Shown here in pieces: positions 48,571-60,550 of a stretch of 64,000 nt of DNA. Source of the stretch: an uncultured Ignavibacteria bacterium (GTDB taxonomy: Bacteria > Bacteroidota > Ignavibacteria > Kapaibacteriales > Kapaibacteriaceae); NCBI GenBank assembly GCA_937870915.1, contig CALMZQ010000062.1, positions 1 through 64,000 on the forward strand. The letters run 5' to 3'. Below the pieces are notes generated by a model, which searched no databases, was not told the DNA's origin, and saw only the letters and a program-made list of their open reading frames with translations. The position numbers were made by a program, and so were the translations under genes. How positions within the stretch are numbered: position 1 is the first letter of the stretch; each line of letters opens with the position of its first letter.

Positions 48571-50580
48571 ATGAAGTCTCTTCTCCTCTTTCTTTGTGTT
48601 GTATCCACGATTTCGGTTGCAACGGCAGACACACTCTTCGTTGCACCTATCAGCGAACTCGGTGGTGATGGACAGAGCTGGAACACAGCGTATCGCACGC
48701 TGAACTTTGCCTTCGCAGATTGGGAAGCAGGCGATGAAATCTGGCTCGCACACGGCACGTATATGATGCCTGACTCAGGCATGCGCGTAAAGAATGGGAT
48801 GAAGATCTATGGTGGATTCAAAGGTTCTGAAACACGCAGAGAGCAACGTGATTGGTTCCGCAATCGAACGATTCTTCATTCTGAAGGTGGGCAATCGGTA
48901 TTGAAAGCGTCAAACTGCGACTCCACAACACGCCTTGATGGACTTGTGCTGGAAGGTGCTACCACATCTGCCCTTATGGTGTCAGGGGGCGAGCCCAGAT
49001 TGTTCAACTGTCACTTCCGTAACAATGCATCGGAGGTGTTTGGTGCTGCTCTCTCAGCGATAAGAGTTGGCCGGATGCGTGTAGAGTATTGCGTCTTTGA
49101 GGACAACAGCTCAAGTTTTGAAGGCGGTGCGGTATCCATATTGAATTCCACCGCTGATGATAAGGGGTTTGGACCATTCTTCGGCCAATGCCTCTTCGTC
49201 AACAATCAGTCTGATGAGGGCGGAGCTATCTATTTCTTTAATTGTGCGGGAGTTCCACAGATAGCGTCATCAGTGTTCCATGGTAATAAGGCTGCGACTT
49301 TGGGAGGTGCCATCAGTATCGTTAGTTCGTATGTCTATATCACGAATAGCACTTTTTCGCGCAATTCCTTGACATCTGGTCCTTCGATGGGTGGAAGAAC
49401 ACTTGCGACGAATGGTGGACATTTGCAGAATAGCATAATCTGGAATGGCGATGAGGATACGTCGCAGCACATCCAGATATATGAAGTTGAAGGTGATACG
49501 ATGAAGTTCACATCACTCTCCAACTTGGTAGAGCGCGATTTCGTCAACGGTTTCTGGCAGAACGATCCTGTGTTTGAGAGTGCCGATAACGTGAATGGTC
49601 CGGACGGTTACTTCGGTACAGACGATGACGGGCTAGTCCTCTCGTCGTTCTCTGCAGTTCGCAATGCAGGCATCATCGACAAATTCGTCAACCACCGTCA
49701 ACAAGATGTGATCGGAAATCCGCGTTTGGCAGGTAGAAAGATCGATCTCGGTGCATATGAGTCACAGAGGTCCGGACGTGTGAGCTATCGTGAAGCGATG
49801 ACGGAGATGCGTACTGGCAAGCTTGTCTTCCTGTTCCGTCATGGCAAAACAGACTGGGATCAGAATGATCCCGGACCTGAGCCAGGCTGCTTCCCTGGCC
49901 GCAACCTCATTGCTGAAGGTCGCGAACAATGTACAGGAATCGGCGCTCAACAACGAGCGCTCGGTGTGCCAGTGGGAGACGCGTTCTCAAGTCCTGTTTG
50001 CCGCTGTTGGGAAACGCTCGACAAGATGGTAGGGCGTTATGAAAAGAAGAGCCATTGGGCAAGCGGCGGTTCAGGTACGGTTGTGGAAGCGCGTTTGGTC
50101 GACCTCGAAACAGTACCAACAAATGGCAATAGGGTTATCTCTACCCATGATGCCGTTGCGAATCTCGTCTTCAACCCGGCAGGTGATGGCGAAATCATGA
50201 CCACAGCTGAACTGATGGAAGGTGATGCTCTTATCGTTCGTCCAACCGGCGACACAATGGAAGTGATCGCACAATGGTGCTCCGATACGTGGGAGCGTTA
50301 TCATGTTCGTTTCCCTGAAAATGCTACGTCCGTTAATGACGAGCAGCAAGTCCGCTATGCGAACATCGTGGTTTCCCCAATGCCTGCTACTGATGTGGTT
50401 CGTATCAGTGCTGACAATGCATGTGCTGTTCGGATCGTTGATATAACGGGCAGAGTGATAGCATCCCTAACCCTAGCCGGAAGTGGTCAGCCCCTTGACG
50501 TGAATGTTTCAACGTGGGCACCTGGACTCTACTCTATCGTAGGTGGTGGCGTATCAGGTCGGATCATGATCACTCGCTGA
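48571..50580 (+). CDS. secreted beta-helix / histidine phosphatase fusion with T9SS domain
   Basis: 669 residues with a signal peptide (MKSLLLFLCVVSTISVATA). Residues about 20-390 form a right-handed beta-helix (Pfam NosD/Beta_helix type; DGLVLEGATTSALMV, FNCHFRNNAS, IAYFFNC-like rungs). Residues about 415-575 are a histidine-phosphatase domain: VFLFRHGKTDW (Arg423/His424), SSPVCRCWET (second Arg) and VISTHDAVANLV (His526). The last 70 residues are a T9SS type A domain (SPMPATDVVRIS, DITGRVIA, APGLYSIV). All four catalytic-type residues are kept, so activity on phosphoesters outside the cell is plausible. The combination is unusual. It overlaps gltP tail to tail by 11 nt. Confidence 0.82.
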   Translation: MKSLLLFLCVVSTISVATADTLFVAPISELGGDGQSWNTAYRTLNFAFADWEAGDEIWLAHGTYMMPDSGMRVKNGMKIYGGFKGSETRREQRDWFRNRTILHSEGGQSVLKASNCDSTTRLDGLVLEGATTSALMVSGGEPRLFNCHFRNNASEVFGAALSAIRVGRMRVEYCVFEDNSSSFEGGAVSILNSTADDKGFGPFFGQCLFVNNQSDEGGAIYFFNCAGVPQIASSVFHGNKAATLGGAISIVSSYVYITNSTFSRNSLTSGPSMGGRTLATNGGHLQNSIIWNGDEDTSQHIQIYEVEGDTMKFTSLSNLVERDFVNGFWQNDPVFESADNVNGPDGYFGTDDDGLVLSSFSAVRNAGIIDKFVNHRQQDVIGNPRLAGRKIDLGAYESQRSGRVSYREAMTEMRTGKLVFLFRHGKTDWDQNDPGPEPGCFPGRNLIAEGREQCTGIGAQQRALGVPVGDAFSSPVCRCWETLDKMVGRYEKKSHWASGGSGTVVEARLVDLETVPTNGNRVISTHDAVANLVFNPAGDGEIMTTAELMEGDALIVRPTGDTMEVIAQWCSDTWERYHVRFPENATSVNDEQQVRYANIVVSPMPATDVVRISADNACAVRIVDITGRVIASLTLAGSGQPLDVNVSTWAPGLYSIVGGGVSGRIMITR

Positions 50581-55030: not shown

Positions 55031-55103
55031 AATGACGTAATGACGCAATGACCTGAACAGGTCACCTGCATAGGTCACCTGCATAGGTCACCTGCACAGG
55101 TCG
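55029..55103. repeat. 8-nt units then 13-nt units after the MFS gene
   Basis: GAAATGAC, GTAATGAC, GCAATGAC (55029-55052) share the unit of the groEL array and overlap the TGA stop. They are followed by three copies of AGGTCACCTGCAY (55059-55097), a 13-nt unit with internal ACCTG/CAGGT complementarity. The array ends a few bases before the stop codon of the convergent TonB-receptor gene. Confidence 0.85.
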
Positions 55104-55106
55104 ATT

Positions 55107-58100
55107 CTAAAAGCTATAACTAGCGCTCACGTATGTAAGGCGTGGGATGTTGGATGCGCCATAAGCTTCGTAGTGCTTCCTATCAAGGAGGTTGTTGATC
55201 GCGAGACCGAGTCGGAGTTCGTCTGTCACAAAGACGCCGGCGTTGAGATTCACAACGGCGTAGGATGGAACGAACCCTTGGAAGTCTCCGGCAAGCCATG
55301 CAAATCCCTCTACGTAGCGAAGCATCACCGAAGCGTCCCATGAGAGCGGGACTTCGTAGCTGGCACCAACATTGATGCGGTGTGGCGACGTGTTCGGTGA
55401 GAGAAGGGCACTGCCAGTGGCAAGGAATGGATTGGTTGTTTTCGCGTCAAGCAGATTCGCGTGGTAATATGCGTAGTTCGCTGTAAGCTGGAGATAGTTG
55501 GTGAGTGAATATTGTGCGCTCACTTCAACACCGAACTGCTCCACAAGACCAAGATTCGTGTTCGAGACTATAAAGGCCGCCTCGTCTTCATAGGTAGTGA
55601 AGCGCGCTCTATCCTGCGGGGTGAGAGCCCCATAGACCATACTGTCAACGAGACCGGTGTATTGTTTGAGATCGTCCGGAAGTTCTTTCGAGCTGGACCA
55701 TGTGCTGTAGTTGGCATTCACACCGGGAAGGAATCCGGAGATGAAGTTCTTCATGCGGTTATAGTACACGTCCACAGTAACAAAGAAGCGATTGGTGATC
55801 TGTCCATTGTAGCCGAATTCGAATCCGATGTTTTGTTCTACATCGAGCTCTAGGTTTCCAACGCCATAGGCAACGGGTTGGATGCCACGAGGGTCCGTTG
55901 GACTCGTTATGGTAGTGTCATACAGTCCCAAGTCTACGTTCTGTGGGGTTCCCGTGAGCTTGGACAGTGTGTCGTTGATGCTTACTTGAACAGGGCGGAA
56001 GTTGACGGGTTTCCCTTGAGCGTTGAAGGCTGGACGGAAGCCATACTTGCGATAGAGCTCCGAAAAGTTTGCGCGTTGGAAGGACCTGCCAGCCGAAACA
56101 CGGAATGTCTGACCAACGATCGGGGAGAACAGCACGGCAAGTCGCGGTGAAAACTGCTGCGGATAGATGTTTGCGTTATCATAGCGAGCAGATGCAACGA
56201 TGGAGAGATTCTCAACGGGCTTGGCTTCGATCTGACCGTACAAACCGAGGAGTCGTGCAAGAATCGGTTCATCCGGGAAGACAGTATTCTCCGATGCAAT
56301 GGACATGTGTTGGTACTGTGTGCCAACGATGTAGTTTACAGACTCACTGATGTTGTTCGTGTATTGTGCGTCGAGATTGAGATCCCAGGAATCATCGAGA
56401 ATGATCGTTCCGGGAGGCGCAGCAAGGATGCGCATAGTGTCTAGCGTCCGACGTGCATTGTATGTAGACTGCACATGGAAGTGTGTGTCATTGTAGGCAA
56501 TGCGTGCGAATGGTTTCTCCGATTGTGGAACGTGAATACGACCGGAGCCGGCAAGCATCACTTCGTTGCCAAACTGCGAATACCCGAATTCGCCAAGGAT
56601 CACCTGTGTTGGACTGAGGTCGTAATCAAGGCGTACGGTACCGTAGGTTGCAAAGGTCTCGCGATCTTCAGATGTGACCTGATTGAGCTCGCGAGCGGCT
56701 GGCCATAGTGATGGGTACTCTGCCACCATGGACGCACTATCTGTGCGGTTCTGTGCGAGATTGTAGGACTGCGAATGCCCGATAGTAACCTTATAGGCAA
56801 GGTCGCCAAGTGTACCTGCATGCCGAACGTCTCCGCGCAGCGTTTTATAGTCGCCCGCAAGCAACGAGACCTTCGTTCCCAGTGCCTCGCGCGGCGAGAG
56901 CGTGGTCATGTTCAAAACACCATTGAAGGCATTTGCACCATATAGTGCCGCAGCTGGTCCACGAACAAGTTCTATACTACGGAAGTCTCCAAGCGAACTC
57001 GCAAAGGAATTCCACTCAACGGCTCCGATCTGTTGCAACGAAACATCTCGTCCGTCTACAAGTACCAGAAGTCTGCGATTCGTACTGTTGTTAAAACCAC
57101 GCGTGTTTACGTTGAAATCTGTTGCACCGTTCTGTACGATGTCTACACCATTCAATCCCTCGAGTGCCTTGCCAAGTTGATTGCCACGCGAAAGGCGTTG
57201 AATGTCTGCCTCCGTTACGGCGGTTACTGCTGAGGGTGTTTCGGTGATCTTCTCCATGCGCTTGCTAGCGCTATAGACCACAACTTCGTTGGCTGAGATC
57301 TCCCCACGCTCAATCGTCGCTTCCATGCGTGTAGTGTCATTATCCTTTACCTCGATGTCCGTAATCGTCGTATCAAGGATCTCAAGCCCCTTAAATGAAA
57401 GAGTGTGTTTCCCGGGAGCAAGGTTCTTTAGTACAAACATGCCCTTGCTGTTCGTATATGCAGTGCGCTTTGCTTCTACGTTGTTCACGCGTACGTTGCG
57501 TGCCGGTTCTTTTGAATCGGAGAGTCTTACCGTGCCAATGATCGTACCGGTTCCTGCCACGAGCGACGTGCTTGCAAGAATTGTCATGATCACCAGTTTC
57601 ACTGCCCAAAGGATCTTCCTGTATCCTTGCGCGGCACGCTCCTTGCCCATGGTTGCATAGACGTTTGGATCGGTTGGTGTATAGGTATCTAGTCCGTCAA
57701 CGTAGCGATTGAACATGCAGAACGAAGCCCCTATTAGTAGTGAATCGTGGATCTCGAGACTTGTTGCCCCAACATCACGTGCGTTTTGAATTGCCTCCTG
57801 AGAGACGGACGAACCGGAATCCCGGATGAGGAGTGCCAGAGTGATTAGTGCATTCAGCTTGGTCGAGATGTTCGCGCTCGTGTGATCAGTAGCAACAGCT
57901 TCCACCAGAGCAACATCATTGTTCAGATGTGCCGCGGCGATGGCACCATGCACTGCGGAGCAATACACGCAGGAGTTTGCTCGTGATACCGCGGTGGCGA
58001 TGAGTTCTCGTTCGCCCTTTGTTAGAGAGTGTGCGTCGTGCAGCAACACGCTGGCAAGTTCGTTGAGGTGAACGGCGATGTCCGGACGCGACATCATTGG

Positions 58101-58145
58101 ACCTCGTATTCCCGGTGCGCCCTCGGGGAGCTCAATGTGTGGCAT
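55107..58145 (-). CDS. AhpD/CMD-peroxidase domain fused in frame to TonB-dependent receptor
   Basis: 1012 residues from ATG 58145, which has GGAAGGGGC upstream and overlaps the previous gene by 14 nt; the frame opens at 58214. Residues 1-178 are a carboxymuconolactone-decarboxylase/AhpD-like domain (MPHIELPE start, Cys59-x2-Cys62-x3-His66, FCMFNRYVDGL about 142), closely like the two upstream paralogues. Residues 179-198 (ILWAVKLVIMTILASTSLVA) look like a signal-peptide core. Then follow a CarboxypepD-regulatory domain (about 200-285), TonB plug (SASKRMEKITETPSAVTAVTEAD, LVLVDGRDVS, ELVRGPAAALYGANAFNGVLN) and beta-barrel ending in the terminal Phe (YSF). No stop separates the two. Either a true fusion, or an internal start (Met166 or Met187) makes the receptor. 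Confidence 0.85.
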   Translation of the reverse strand: MPHIELPEGAPGIRGPMMSRPDIAVHLNELASVLLHDAHSLTKGERELIATAVSRANSCVYCSAVHGAIAAAHLNNDVALVEAVATDHTSANISTKLNALITLALLIRDSGSSVSQEAIQNARDVGATSLEIHDSLLIGASFCMFNRYVDGLDTYTPTDPNVYATMGKERAAQGYRKILWAVKLVIMTILASTSLVAGTGTIIGTVRLSDSKEPARNVRVNNVEAKRTAYTNSKGMFVLKNLAPGKHTLSFKGLEILDTTITDIEVKDNDTTRMEATIERGEISANEVVVYSASKRMEKITETPSAVTAVTEADIQRLSRGNQLGKALEGLNGVDIVQNGATDFNVNTRGFNNSTNRRLLVLVDGRDVSLQQIGAVEWNSFASSLGDFRSIELVRGPAAALYGANAFNGVLNMTTLSPREALGTKVSLLAGDYKTLRGDVRHAGTLGDLAYKVTIGHSQSYNLAQNRTDSASMVAEYPSLWPAARELNQVTSEDRETFATYGTVRLDYDLSPTQVILGEFGYSQFGNEVMLAGSGRIHVPQSEKPFARIAYNDTHFHVQSTYNARRTLDTMRILAAPPGTIILDDSWDLNLDAQYTNNISESVNYIVGTQYQHMSIASENTVFPDEPILARLLGLYGQIEAKPVENLSIVASARYDNANIYPQQFSPRLAVLFSPIVGQTFRVSAGRSFQRANFSELYRKYGFRPAFNAQGKPVNFRPVQVSINDTLSKLTGTPQNVDLGLYDTTITSPTDPRGIQPVAYGVGNLELDVEQNIGFEFGYNGQITNRFFVTVDVYYNRMKNFISGFLPGVNANYSTWSSSKELPDDLKQYTGLVDSMVYGALTPQDRARFTTYEDEAAFIVSNTNLGLVEQFGVEVSAQYSLTNYLQLTANYAYYHANLLDAKTTNPFLATGSALLSPNTSPHRINVGASYEVPLSWDASVMLRYVEGFAWLAGDFQGFVPSYAVVNLNAGVFVTDELRLGLAINNLLDRKHYEAYGASNIPRLTYVSASYSF

Positions 58146-58686
58146 TGGCAAGCCCCTTCCGAACATATCCCTGCGTGGAAAGTCTATCGGCAAGTGTTTC
58201 GAAGTATGCATCATCGTCCGGACACACAGACGCTAAGCCATCCACGTATCTGTTGTACATGCAGAATAATGCCGCGATCAAAACCGTATCGTGAATCTCT
58301 ACATCCGTGGCACCAACCCTACGTGCATCGTCGATGAGCTCCTGCGATACACCACGTGGACTTGCTCGAACGGCCGAGGCGATCACGAGCAATCTGGAGA
58401 TTCGAGGGTGAAGGGGGCTTGCCAACGGGTTGTCGATGATCGATCGAACGAGATCCATGGACCCAACGTAGCGAGCTGCTGTAGTCGTATGTGCGCGTGT
58501 GCAGAACTGGCACTCATTGCCATCACATACGATTGAGGCGATGAGTTCGCGCTCACCTTCAGTGAGTGAGGATGGACCACGAAGAATGAACTGCGTCAGC
58601 TCGCGGATTGATTCTGATGTATCGAGTCTGCTCTCAAGGAGACCCGTTATTCCAGGAAGTCCGGACGGGATTTCAATGTGTGGCAT
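58132..58686 (-). CDS. AhpD/CMD-like alkylhydroperoxidase paralogue 2
   Basis: 184 residues from ATG 58686, with GGAGG eight bases upstream; an upstream frame to 58779 lies inside the neighbour. The start MPHIEIPSGLPGITG matches that of the fused paralogue (MPHIELPEGAPGIRG). Cys59-x2-Cys62-x3-His66 (ECQFCTRAH) is the CMD/AhpD redox motif; HDTVLIAALFCMYNRYVDGL is the conserved C-terminal motif. AhpD-like proteins reduce peroxides through the Cys pair or act as redox carriers. It overlaps the fused gene by 14 nt and follows paralogue 3 by one base, so all three are co-translated. Confidence 0.85.
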   Translation of the reverse strand: MPHIEIPSGLPGITGLLESRLDTSESIRELTQFILRGPSSLTEGERELIASIVCDGNECQFCTRAHTTTAARYVGSMDLVRSIIDNPLASPLHPRISRLLVIASAVRASPRGVSQELIDDARRVGATDVEIHDTVLIAALFCMYNRYVDGLASVCPDDDAYFETLADRLSTQGYVRKGLANATH

Positions 58687-58687
58687 A

Positions 58688-59227
58688 TCACCGACCTCCG
58701 TCATAGCCAACTTCGGCCATACGCTTGCCCATTTCGATGTAGGCGGCAGGATCGCGAGGTGTAAGCGCTTGCAACCCATCTACGTAACGATTGAACATGC
58801 AGAAGGCCGCAGAGATCAGGACAGCATCATGGATATCTCTATCAACGGCACCTTCTGCGCGGGCAGCTGCAACGTCTTCATCGGTGACGATACGACCACC
58901 CCTGCGAACCTTTTCGGCAATGACGAGCAATGCCTGCAGCTTTGGGCTAACAACGGAATGATCACCACGATAGACAACGGCGTCAACCACGTCGGCCTCC
59001 GAGCCATAGTGATGCCTAGCCGCTGCGGCGTGAGACATCGTGCAGAATGTGCACTGATTGCCATGAGAAATGAAGGCCGCTATCAGCTCACGTTCGCCCT
59101 TTGTGAGGGGGCTTTCCCCATGTAGCAGTGCGTGTGCAAGTCTGCGCAATGGAGCACCGGTTTCCGGACGGAACTCAAAGAGACTGCGGATTCCGGGTAT
59201 AGACGCGTCAACAGGAACAAAGGCCAT
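58688..59227 (-). CDS. AhpD/CMD-like alkylhydroperoxidase paralogue 3
   Basis: 179 residues starting MAFVPVDASIPGIRS. It has Cys59-x2-Cys62-x3-His66 (QCTFCTMSH), in the same position as its two paralogues, the shared LTKGERELIA (about 41) and HDAVLISAAFCMFNRYVDGL (about 134-153). The C-terminus YIEMGKRMAEVGYDG corresponds to YATMGKERAAQGYRK in the fused protein, where that protein continues into the membrane segment. It lies seven bases after the MFS stop and one base before paralogue 2. Likely a cytoplasmic peroxidase-related redox enzyme; the substrate is unknown. Confidence 0.85.
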   Translation of the reverse strand: MAFVPVDASIPGIRSLFEFRPETGAPLRRLAHALLHGESPLTKGERELIAAFISHGNQCTFCTMSHAAAARHHYGSEADVVDAVVYRGDHSVVSPKLQALLVIAEKVRRGGRIVTDEDVAAARAEGAVDRDIHDAVLISAAFCMFNRYVDGLQALTPRDPAAYIEMGKRMAEVGYDGGR

Positions 59228-59233
59228 GATGAG

Positions 59234-60448
59234 TTAGATCGTTGGTGATTGAAGTGCAGGGTGTGGTTCGCGCGCAAACCACGTGATGGTAAGTCCAATG
59301 GCAAGGGGCGCTGTAAAAACAAGCAGTGCTTCTTGATAACCGCCAAGTGCAACGGCAAGAAAACCCACGTTCAACACGGCGCCGGCTGTGATGAGTCTGC
59401 CGGCGTTGAAGCAGACTCCCACACTCGTTGCTCGTATACGCGGTGGGAAGAGCTCAGGGATGTAGAATGCCATCATACCCTGACACATGCCAAAGAATAC
59501 AGCCAGAGCCGATACGAGAAACATCATCGTGCCTGGCGTTGATGGTGCAGAGGTGTATAGTGCGAGGCAGCCAATGAGTGCACCCGAATAACACACAACA
59601 ACCGTCTTGACGCGGCCGATGCGACGTGCGATCACACCGGAAAAGATGCTACCAACGATGCCACCAATGCCCAGTGATACCATGATGGAGCCACGCAAAC
59701 CAGCTCCTGAATCATTGCCCGGGAAGAGTGCTGTTGCCCACGTAGGCAGCCATGAAAAGGATGCCCAGAGAGTGATGAGCATGCAGCCAAACAACAGCGA
59801 ACCGATGATGAGGTCCCGACGTGATTGACGGAGCGCACTTGCAAGCCTTTCTGTGGGCTCCGATTCGTGGTGCATCGTGGTCGCCACCGGCTTTGTAGAT
59901 AGTGACCCAACGGCAGGGACGAGTAATGCAAAAAAGAGCATAACGAATGATGCATCACTCCATAACATATCGGTGGACTGTAACCCGCCAAGAAAGACGA
60001 TGCCAAAGGCGTAGGAGTTAGCAAGGAGCCCCATGAAAACCGGACGACGCCCGTGCGATAGTACTTCTGCTCCAAGTGTTGTTGATATCACCATCGTAGA
60101 TCCGACACCGATCCCGGTAATGAACCGAACGATGTAGGCAAATGCTGGAGAGGGGGCTAGTGGCAATGAAGCAGCGCCCAGAACTGCGATACTTAATGCT
60201 ATTGCAAGAACGGGGAGCCTTCCGCGGAGGTCCGCAAACAGTCCAAGGACAACACCTCCCGTAACCCAACCAACAAGAAAGACGGATTGCAGGAATGCTC
60301 CTATCTGCGCAGTCTCCTCCAATGGTGCTGTTGGCGCCAAGGTTGCAGTGATAGACGGGAGAAAGGTAGGAACCAGAGTGGCGATGGAGCCGGAGGCTAG
60401 TCCGGCGCACCAACACAGGGCGAACGTAAGCCATTGGCGTGTTGTCAT
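59234..60448 (-). CDS. MFS transporter (AAHS/SP-like) of the AhpD operon
   Basis: 404 residues, twelve membrane segments. Motif A region LGLFADLRGRLPVL (about 69-82), SGVIARRIGRVKTV (about 267) and YIPELFPPRIRATSVGVCFNAGRL (about 324-347) fit the sugar/organic-acid (SV2/AAHS) branch of the MFS. The start ATG 60448 gives the first helix directly after MTTRQWL. A TACCTTTG box lies four bases upstream of it on the minus strand, so transcripts could be nearly leaderless. It is the first gene of the operon that continues with three AhpD-like proteins and the TonB receptor. Confidence 0.85.
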   Translation of the reverse strand: MTTRQWLTFALCWCAGLASGSIATLVPTFLPSITATLAPTAPLEETAQIGAFLQSVFLVGWVTGGVVLGLFADLRGRLPVLAIALSIAVLGAASLPLAPSPAFAYIVRFITGIGVGSTMVISTTLGAEVLSHGRRPVFMGLLANSYAFGIVFLGGLQSTDMLWSDASFVMLFFALLVPAVGSLSTKPVATTMHHESEPTERLASALRQSRRDLIIGSLLFGCMLITLWASFSWLPTWATALFPGNDSGAGLRGSIMVSLGIGGIVGSIFSGVIARRIGRVKTVVVCYSGALIGCLALYTSAPSTPGTMMFLVSALAVFFGMCQGMMAFYIPELFPPRIRATSVGVCFNAGRLITAGAVLNVGFLAVALGGYQEALLVFTAPLAIGLTITWFAREPHPALQSPTI

Positions 60449-60452
60449 CAAG

Positions 60453-60460
60453 CAAAGGTA
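60453..60460 (-). promoter_or_regulatory. possible -7 box of the AhpD/TonB operon
   Basis: TACCTTTG (minus) matches TAnnTTTG exactly, with ATTG 21 nt further upstream (60482-60485, one base off TTTG). It ends four bases before the MFS start, which would imply a leaderless or almost leaderless transcript, so confidence is low. Confidence 0.3.
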
Positions 60461-60550
60461 GACGCGATTGAGGGCACTGTGCAATGTCGTAATTGAACTA
60501 AGGAACATAGGTTCATTAACAATTGGGATACTATCGAATCAGTATGACGC

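Follow-up and report, generated by a model that had tools for sequence, protein, structure and literature searches.

AhpD and the peroxidase-related CMD proteins (PF02627, TIGR01926; structures 2PRR, 3C1L and 6K40) are known as stand-alone, cytoplasmic proteins that share one fold and a CxxC motif plus histidine. TonB-dependent receptors that have the Cir/BtuB/PfeA fold and a CarboxypepD_reg domain combine this regulatory-like domain with a plug and a β-barrel. Signal peptides are normally found at or near the N-terminus. One bacterial gene, the Bradyrhizobium fbcH gene for the cytochrome b/c1 precursor, gives rise to two proteins which are parted at an internal signal peptide; in that case, however, the leading part is an inner-membrane protein rather than a soluble enzyme, and the trailing part is no outer-membrane barrel. 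A literature search found no description of a fusion between an AhpD/CMD protein and a receptor, or of an operon of AhpD, receptor and MFS genes.

The window analysed here is a stretch of 64,000 nucleotides from an uncultured Ignavibacteria bacterium. It contains a gene in which an AhpD-like domain runs on, via a predicted internal signal peptide, into a TonB-dependent receptor. Its parts are as follows.

55107..58145, minus strand: fused gene for AhpD-like domain, putative internal signal peptide and TonB-dependent receptor (open frame; Pfam and NCBIfam domains; five other genomes)
57621..58145, minus strand: AhpD/CMD-like domain, residues 1–175, with Cys59, Cys62 and His66 (PF02627, TIGR01926, model, dN/dS)
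57648..57650, minus strand: Met166 codon, the sole internal start conserved in all fused proteins (invariant in six of six; inside model helix 160–173)
57555..57617, minus strand: internal signal-peptide-like segment, residues 177–197, with a small-residue, cleavage-like end (hydrophobicity, models, alignment with split receptors)
57312..57545, minus strand: CarboxypepD_reg-like domain, residues 201–278 (PF13620; β domain in the model)
56916..57248, minus strand: receptor plug domain, residues 300–410 (PF07715, 65.6 bits)
55110..56477, minus strand: receptor β-barrel (PF00593, 99 bits; model matches)

The gene's 1012 codons plus stop form a single open frame, uninterrupted from the ATG at 58145 to the stop at 55107, and in this respect the original prediction was correct. 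Pfam and NCBIfam place CMD/AhpD, CarboxypepD_reg, Plug and β-barrel on this one protein, in the order AhpD/CMD (residues 1–175), hydrophobic segment, CarboxypepD_reg, plug and β-barrel. Together with hydrophobicity, they bear out the earlier claim of a complete AhpD domain followed by a signal-like segment, plug and barrel; Cys59, Cys62, His66, Met166 and Met187 all lie where that claim had put them. The ATG at 58145 is the likely start codon. Its Shine-Dalgarno site, GGAAGGGGC, is strong (-7.7 kcal/mol), and the start overlaps with the end of the AhpD gene ahead of it, stop codon included, the overlap being ATGCCACACATTGA; a start at 58214, to which the listed open reading frame extends, was dropped in its favour because of this site and the operon overlap. 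Shine-Dalgarno energies at the fused-gene start are strong in all six genomes that carry the fusion (-5.0 to -11.9 kcal/mol). Since no stop lies between the two parts, ribosomes initiating at the AhpD start should continue into the receptor, and a separate third AhpD-like protein (AhpD3) would be obtainable only via proteolysis.

The AhpD part has the full domain length, fold and CxxC plus histidine of its stand-alone relatives. The window's protein matches PF02627 with 38.7 bits (cut-off 23) and TIGR01926 with 83.5 (cut-off 81.8); TIGR01926 scores of the other fused copies are under the cut-off, at 62–77 bits. A model of residues 1–202 (mean pLDDT 90.9, above 90 over most of the AhpD domain) shows the full, all-helical AhpD fold and matches 2PRR, 6K40 and 3C1L, the best PDB match being 2PRR (TM 0.72 normalised by target). 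Its structural neighbours include peroxidase-related proteins and a debrominase, Bmp8, so that a peroxidase reaction is only one of the candidates. Cys59, Cys62 and His66 are invariant across the six fused proteins, and Cys62 and His66 are present in all 208 AhpD homologues compared. The dN/dS ratio of the domain is 0.035 for the closest pair, G008 and G005, and about 0.1–0.2 in the other measurable pairs, many pairs being saturated at silent sites. These ratios indicate that the AhpD domain of the fused gene is under purifying selection and has been retained.

The receptor part is conventional in its fold. Both PF07715 (plug) and PF00593 (barrel) score over their cut-offs, the model matches Cir, BtuB and PfeA, and the plug, barrel and regulatory-like domain are shared with receptors of this fold. 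In contrast to these, the fused protein has no cleavable N-terminal signal peptide; its signal-like segment is internal and begins at residue 177, which is a departure in position and not in receptor fold. Another receptor of this family, not fused, is encoded elsewhere in the window's own genome (G000:C34:1773-4271, 42% identity); it branches with receptors of G010, G018 and G016, apart from the AhpD operon clade.

When related genomes were searched, as the original prediction had proposed, the same fusion was present in five others, with 64–67% protein identity to the window. The six genomes represent six species in three genera of one family of uncultured Kapabacteria. They are separately assembled MAGs, labelled Candidatus Kapaibacterium, Bacteroidetes or Ignavibacteria; like all genomes compared, they are draft assemblies. 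The fusion is full length in G009, G008 and G016, and extends up to the contig ends in G015 and G005. No stop or truncation was found at the junction in any of the six copies, including the two that run off their contigs. No further fused copies were found outside these six Kapabacteria genomes among 123 genomes of the order, a phylum sample of 395 genomes and the 80 best named loci; rarer fusions may exist beyond these. The idea that homologues are always two separate genes thus fails within the close family and holds outside it.

In four relatives, two from the same family (G012 and G017) and two from other families of the order (G027 and G115), AhpD3 and the receptor are two genes of the same operon. 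A stop codon and a spacer lie between them, the spacer lengths being 35, 48, 86 and 148 nt, and the receptors begin at their own start with their own signal peptide. Two further candidates for fusion were rejected: G017 itself, for which both pieces had been listed with a frame of 1052 codons, has two stops between the pieces, and in G008 an apparent joint between AhpD1 and AhpD2 consists of a stretch of N in the assembled sequence. The fusion of AhpD-like domain and receptor is genuine and conserved.

When the receptor part was analysed by maximum likelihood, the tree placed all six fused receptors in one clade (support 100/99) nested among split ones. G012, G017, G027 and G115 are successively more distant from it, the order of G115 and G027 having weaker support (88/82). 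The tree of the AhpD part has weaker support and is compatible with the receptor tree. The nesting of the fused clade inside split forms points to one fusion that arose and was retained, and a split ancestor with one fusion event, kept since, would be the simplest history. Compared with G012, the fusion appears to have removed the AhpD3 tail, the stop, the spacer, the ribosome site and the receptor start, if a deletion is indeed how the two genes were joined. In the fused forms, the C-terminal helix of AhpD now abuts the hydrophobic core of the former signal peptide.

This junction has several features of a signal peptide. In all six fused proteins, no other 12-residue stretch is as hydrophobic as the one at the junction. 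Net charge just before this 12-mer is +1 to +4 in four species; in G008 and G005, whose automatically picked 12-mer includes the nearest arginine, it comes to 0 by this count. The segment ends in small residues across the fused proteins (for example LVAG, LFAG, AFA, LLAG and MLA), and it aligns with the ordinary N-terminal signal peptides of the split receptors. In the full-length model residues 181–198 are the sole long low-confidence stretch, lying between two well-predicted modules, and the signal-like segment is modelled as a separate low-confidence helix. Its composition—hydrophobicity, charge and small residues—and the comparison with split receptors suggest that the junction is a signal peptide, and by these two measures all six genomes have a single frame with an internal signal-like peptide and no stop. 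Two matches to signal peptidase I were found over cut-off in the window's genome.

The silent divergence between G008 and G005 (loci L046 and L051) is 0.06–0.09 at the junction and CarboxypepD_reg domain compared to 0.24–0.32 elsewhere in the gene, perhaps owing to recombination between lineages or to constraint at the DNA level.

The product of the fused gene is probably a natural precursor: its internal signal peptide would export the receptor, signal peptidase would release it and the AhpD domain would stay in the cytoplasm. Cleavage at the internal segment is also the best supported of the options originally put forward. According to this model, a single fusion event in the ancestor of part of the Kapabacteria family would have joined the third AhpD-like gene to the receptor, the C-terminal helix of AhpD then providing the signal peptide of the receptor with its positively charged front. 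The AhpD domain would be completed and folded in the cytoplasm, and the internal signal peptide would insert in the Sec translocon, oriented with AhpD towards the cytoplasm. Signal peptidase I would cut behind a motif such as LVAG or AFA, and the released receptor would move to the outer membrane. The AhpD domain would not leave the cytoplasmic side, and the remnant of the signal segment would anchor it there at least temporarily. More tentatively, such anchoring could hold the enzyme at the cytoplasmic face of the inner membrane beside its MFS partner, in amounts equal to those of the receptor; we rate this as somewhat short of an even chance.

Alternatively, translation may also initiate internally at Met166, yielding a separate receptor whose signal peptide would be MGxxRAxQGYR plus the hydrophobic core, with the full-length product acting mainly as an AhpD enzyme. 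We regard this as rather unlikely. A receptor started at Met166 would carry some 30 residues that could plausibly serve as its signal peptide. The position is methionine in six of six fused proteins, while the four split orthologues have L, I, N and I there, a pattern which could hint at an internal start in use. However, a Shine-Dalgarno site is absent at Met166 in five of the six fused genomes (energies 0, -5.8, -1.5, -1.8, 0 and -1.5 kcal/mol; the median over internal ATGs generally is -2.4), whereas the fused-gene start has one in all six. Met166 also lies inside a conserved AhpD helix, at a position where methionine is frequent among AhpD proteins (85 of 208 in the wider set), and the full-length fusion would still be made, as no stop intervenes. 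Other internal ATG, GTG and TTG codons vary among species, and G008 and G005 have no internal start codons between Met166 and the receptor. The earlier suggestion of a separate receptor made from Met166 or Met187 is weakly supported: the former is invariant but has no Shine-Dalgarno site in five of six, and the latter is not conserved as a start.

It is very unlikely that the whole fusion crosses the inner membrane to give an outer-membrane receptor with a periplasmic AhpD domain. The sequence itself would permit such export, and some receptors do bear extra N-terminal periplasmic domains. Nevertheless the signal-like segment comes after and not before AhpD, the positive residues preceding it would favour cytoplasmic retention, the split AhpD genes have no signal ahead of AhpD, and AhpD relatives are cytoplasmic proteins. 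Export with the AhpD domain in tow, as the original prediction had envisaged among its options, need not be invoked and ranks as the least likely of them.

The chance of a decaying or accidental read-through fusion with a dispensable AhpD part is slimmer still: two intact AhpD paralogues in the operon make redundancy possible, but selection on the domain is strongly purifying, its active-site residues are intact in six of six proteins, and there is no truncation or stop. Finally, a sequencing or assembly error masking a stop or frameshift is excluded in practice, even with every genome a draft, because the same in-frame fusion occurs in six separately assembled genomes at the protein identities given above and relatives have clear stops at the boundary.

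Upstream of the fused gene lie the other genes of its operon.

58132..58686, minus strand: tandem AhpD-like gene 2, the end of which overlaps the fused-gene start (PF02627)
58688..59227, minus strand: tandem AhpD-like gene 1 (PF02627)
59234..60508, minus strand: MFS transporter, first gene of the conserved operon (PF07690; adjoins AhpD and receptor genes across relatives)

The split MFS–AhpD–AhpD–AhpD–receptor operon of Kapabacteria has the same genes and neighbours, but AhpD and receptor are separate there. The same is true of Chryseolinea, Ohtaekwangia, Spirosoma, Mucilaginibacter and other Bacteroidota, in which the gene set occurs as AhpD–receptor–MFS–AhpD–AhpD, all separate genes (seen at loci L144, L107, L090 and others). 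In Spirosoma (L144) a SnoaL-like gene adjoins the set, and a DUF3179 gene does so in Spirosoma and Chryseolinea (L107). The split operon is thus widespread in Bacteroidota and only the fusion is new; of the new coupling of peroxidase and uptake expression that was first claimed, the fusion stands as novel, while the separate genes were already side by side across the phylum.

Two other features of the window were observed. At 55051–55102, between the convergent ends of an MFS gene on the plus strand and the fused gene on the minus strand, a 13-nt unit, ACCTGCATAGGTC, is repeated head to tail in about four copies, each with an ACCT...AGGT inverted pair. At 48571–50580 a predicted secreted protein has a beta-helix-like region and a type IX secretion C-terminal tail; it also has an RHG motif and a weak histidine-phosphatase-like match, below cut-off.

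The gene set shared across Bacteroidota ties the enzymes to the receptor and the MFS transporter, and the three probably form one uptake-and-processing unit. The operon would take a small molecule through the outer membrane via the receptor and through the inner membrane via the MFS transporter, to the AhpD-like enzymes in the cytoplasm.

Automatic annotation may label fusions of this kind as plain receptors, missing both the enzyme and the export signal. A conserved, folded cytoplasmic domain ahead of the signal of a barrel protein would test the tolerance of Sec for large N-terminal passengers. If the precursor reading is true, the fusion would be a new way of locking the output of enzyme and receptor at 1:1, and it would also tie a widespread AhpD–receptor–MFS gene set together as one functional unit.
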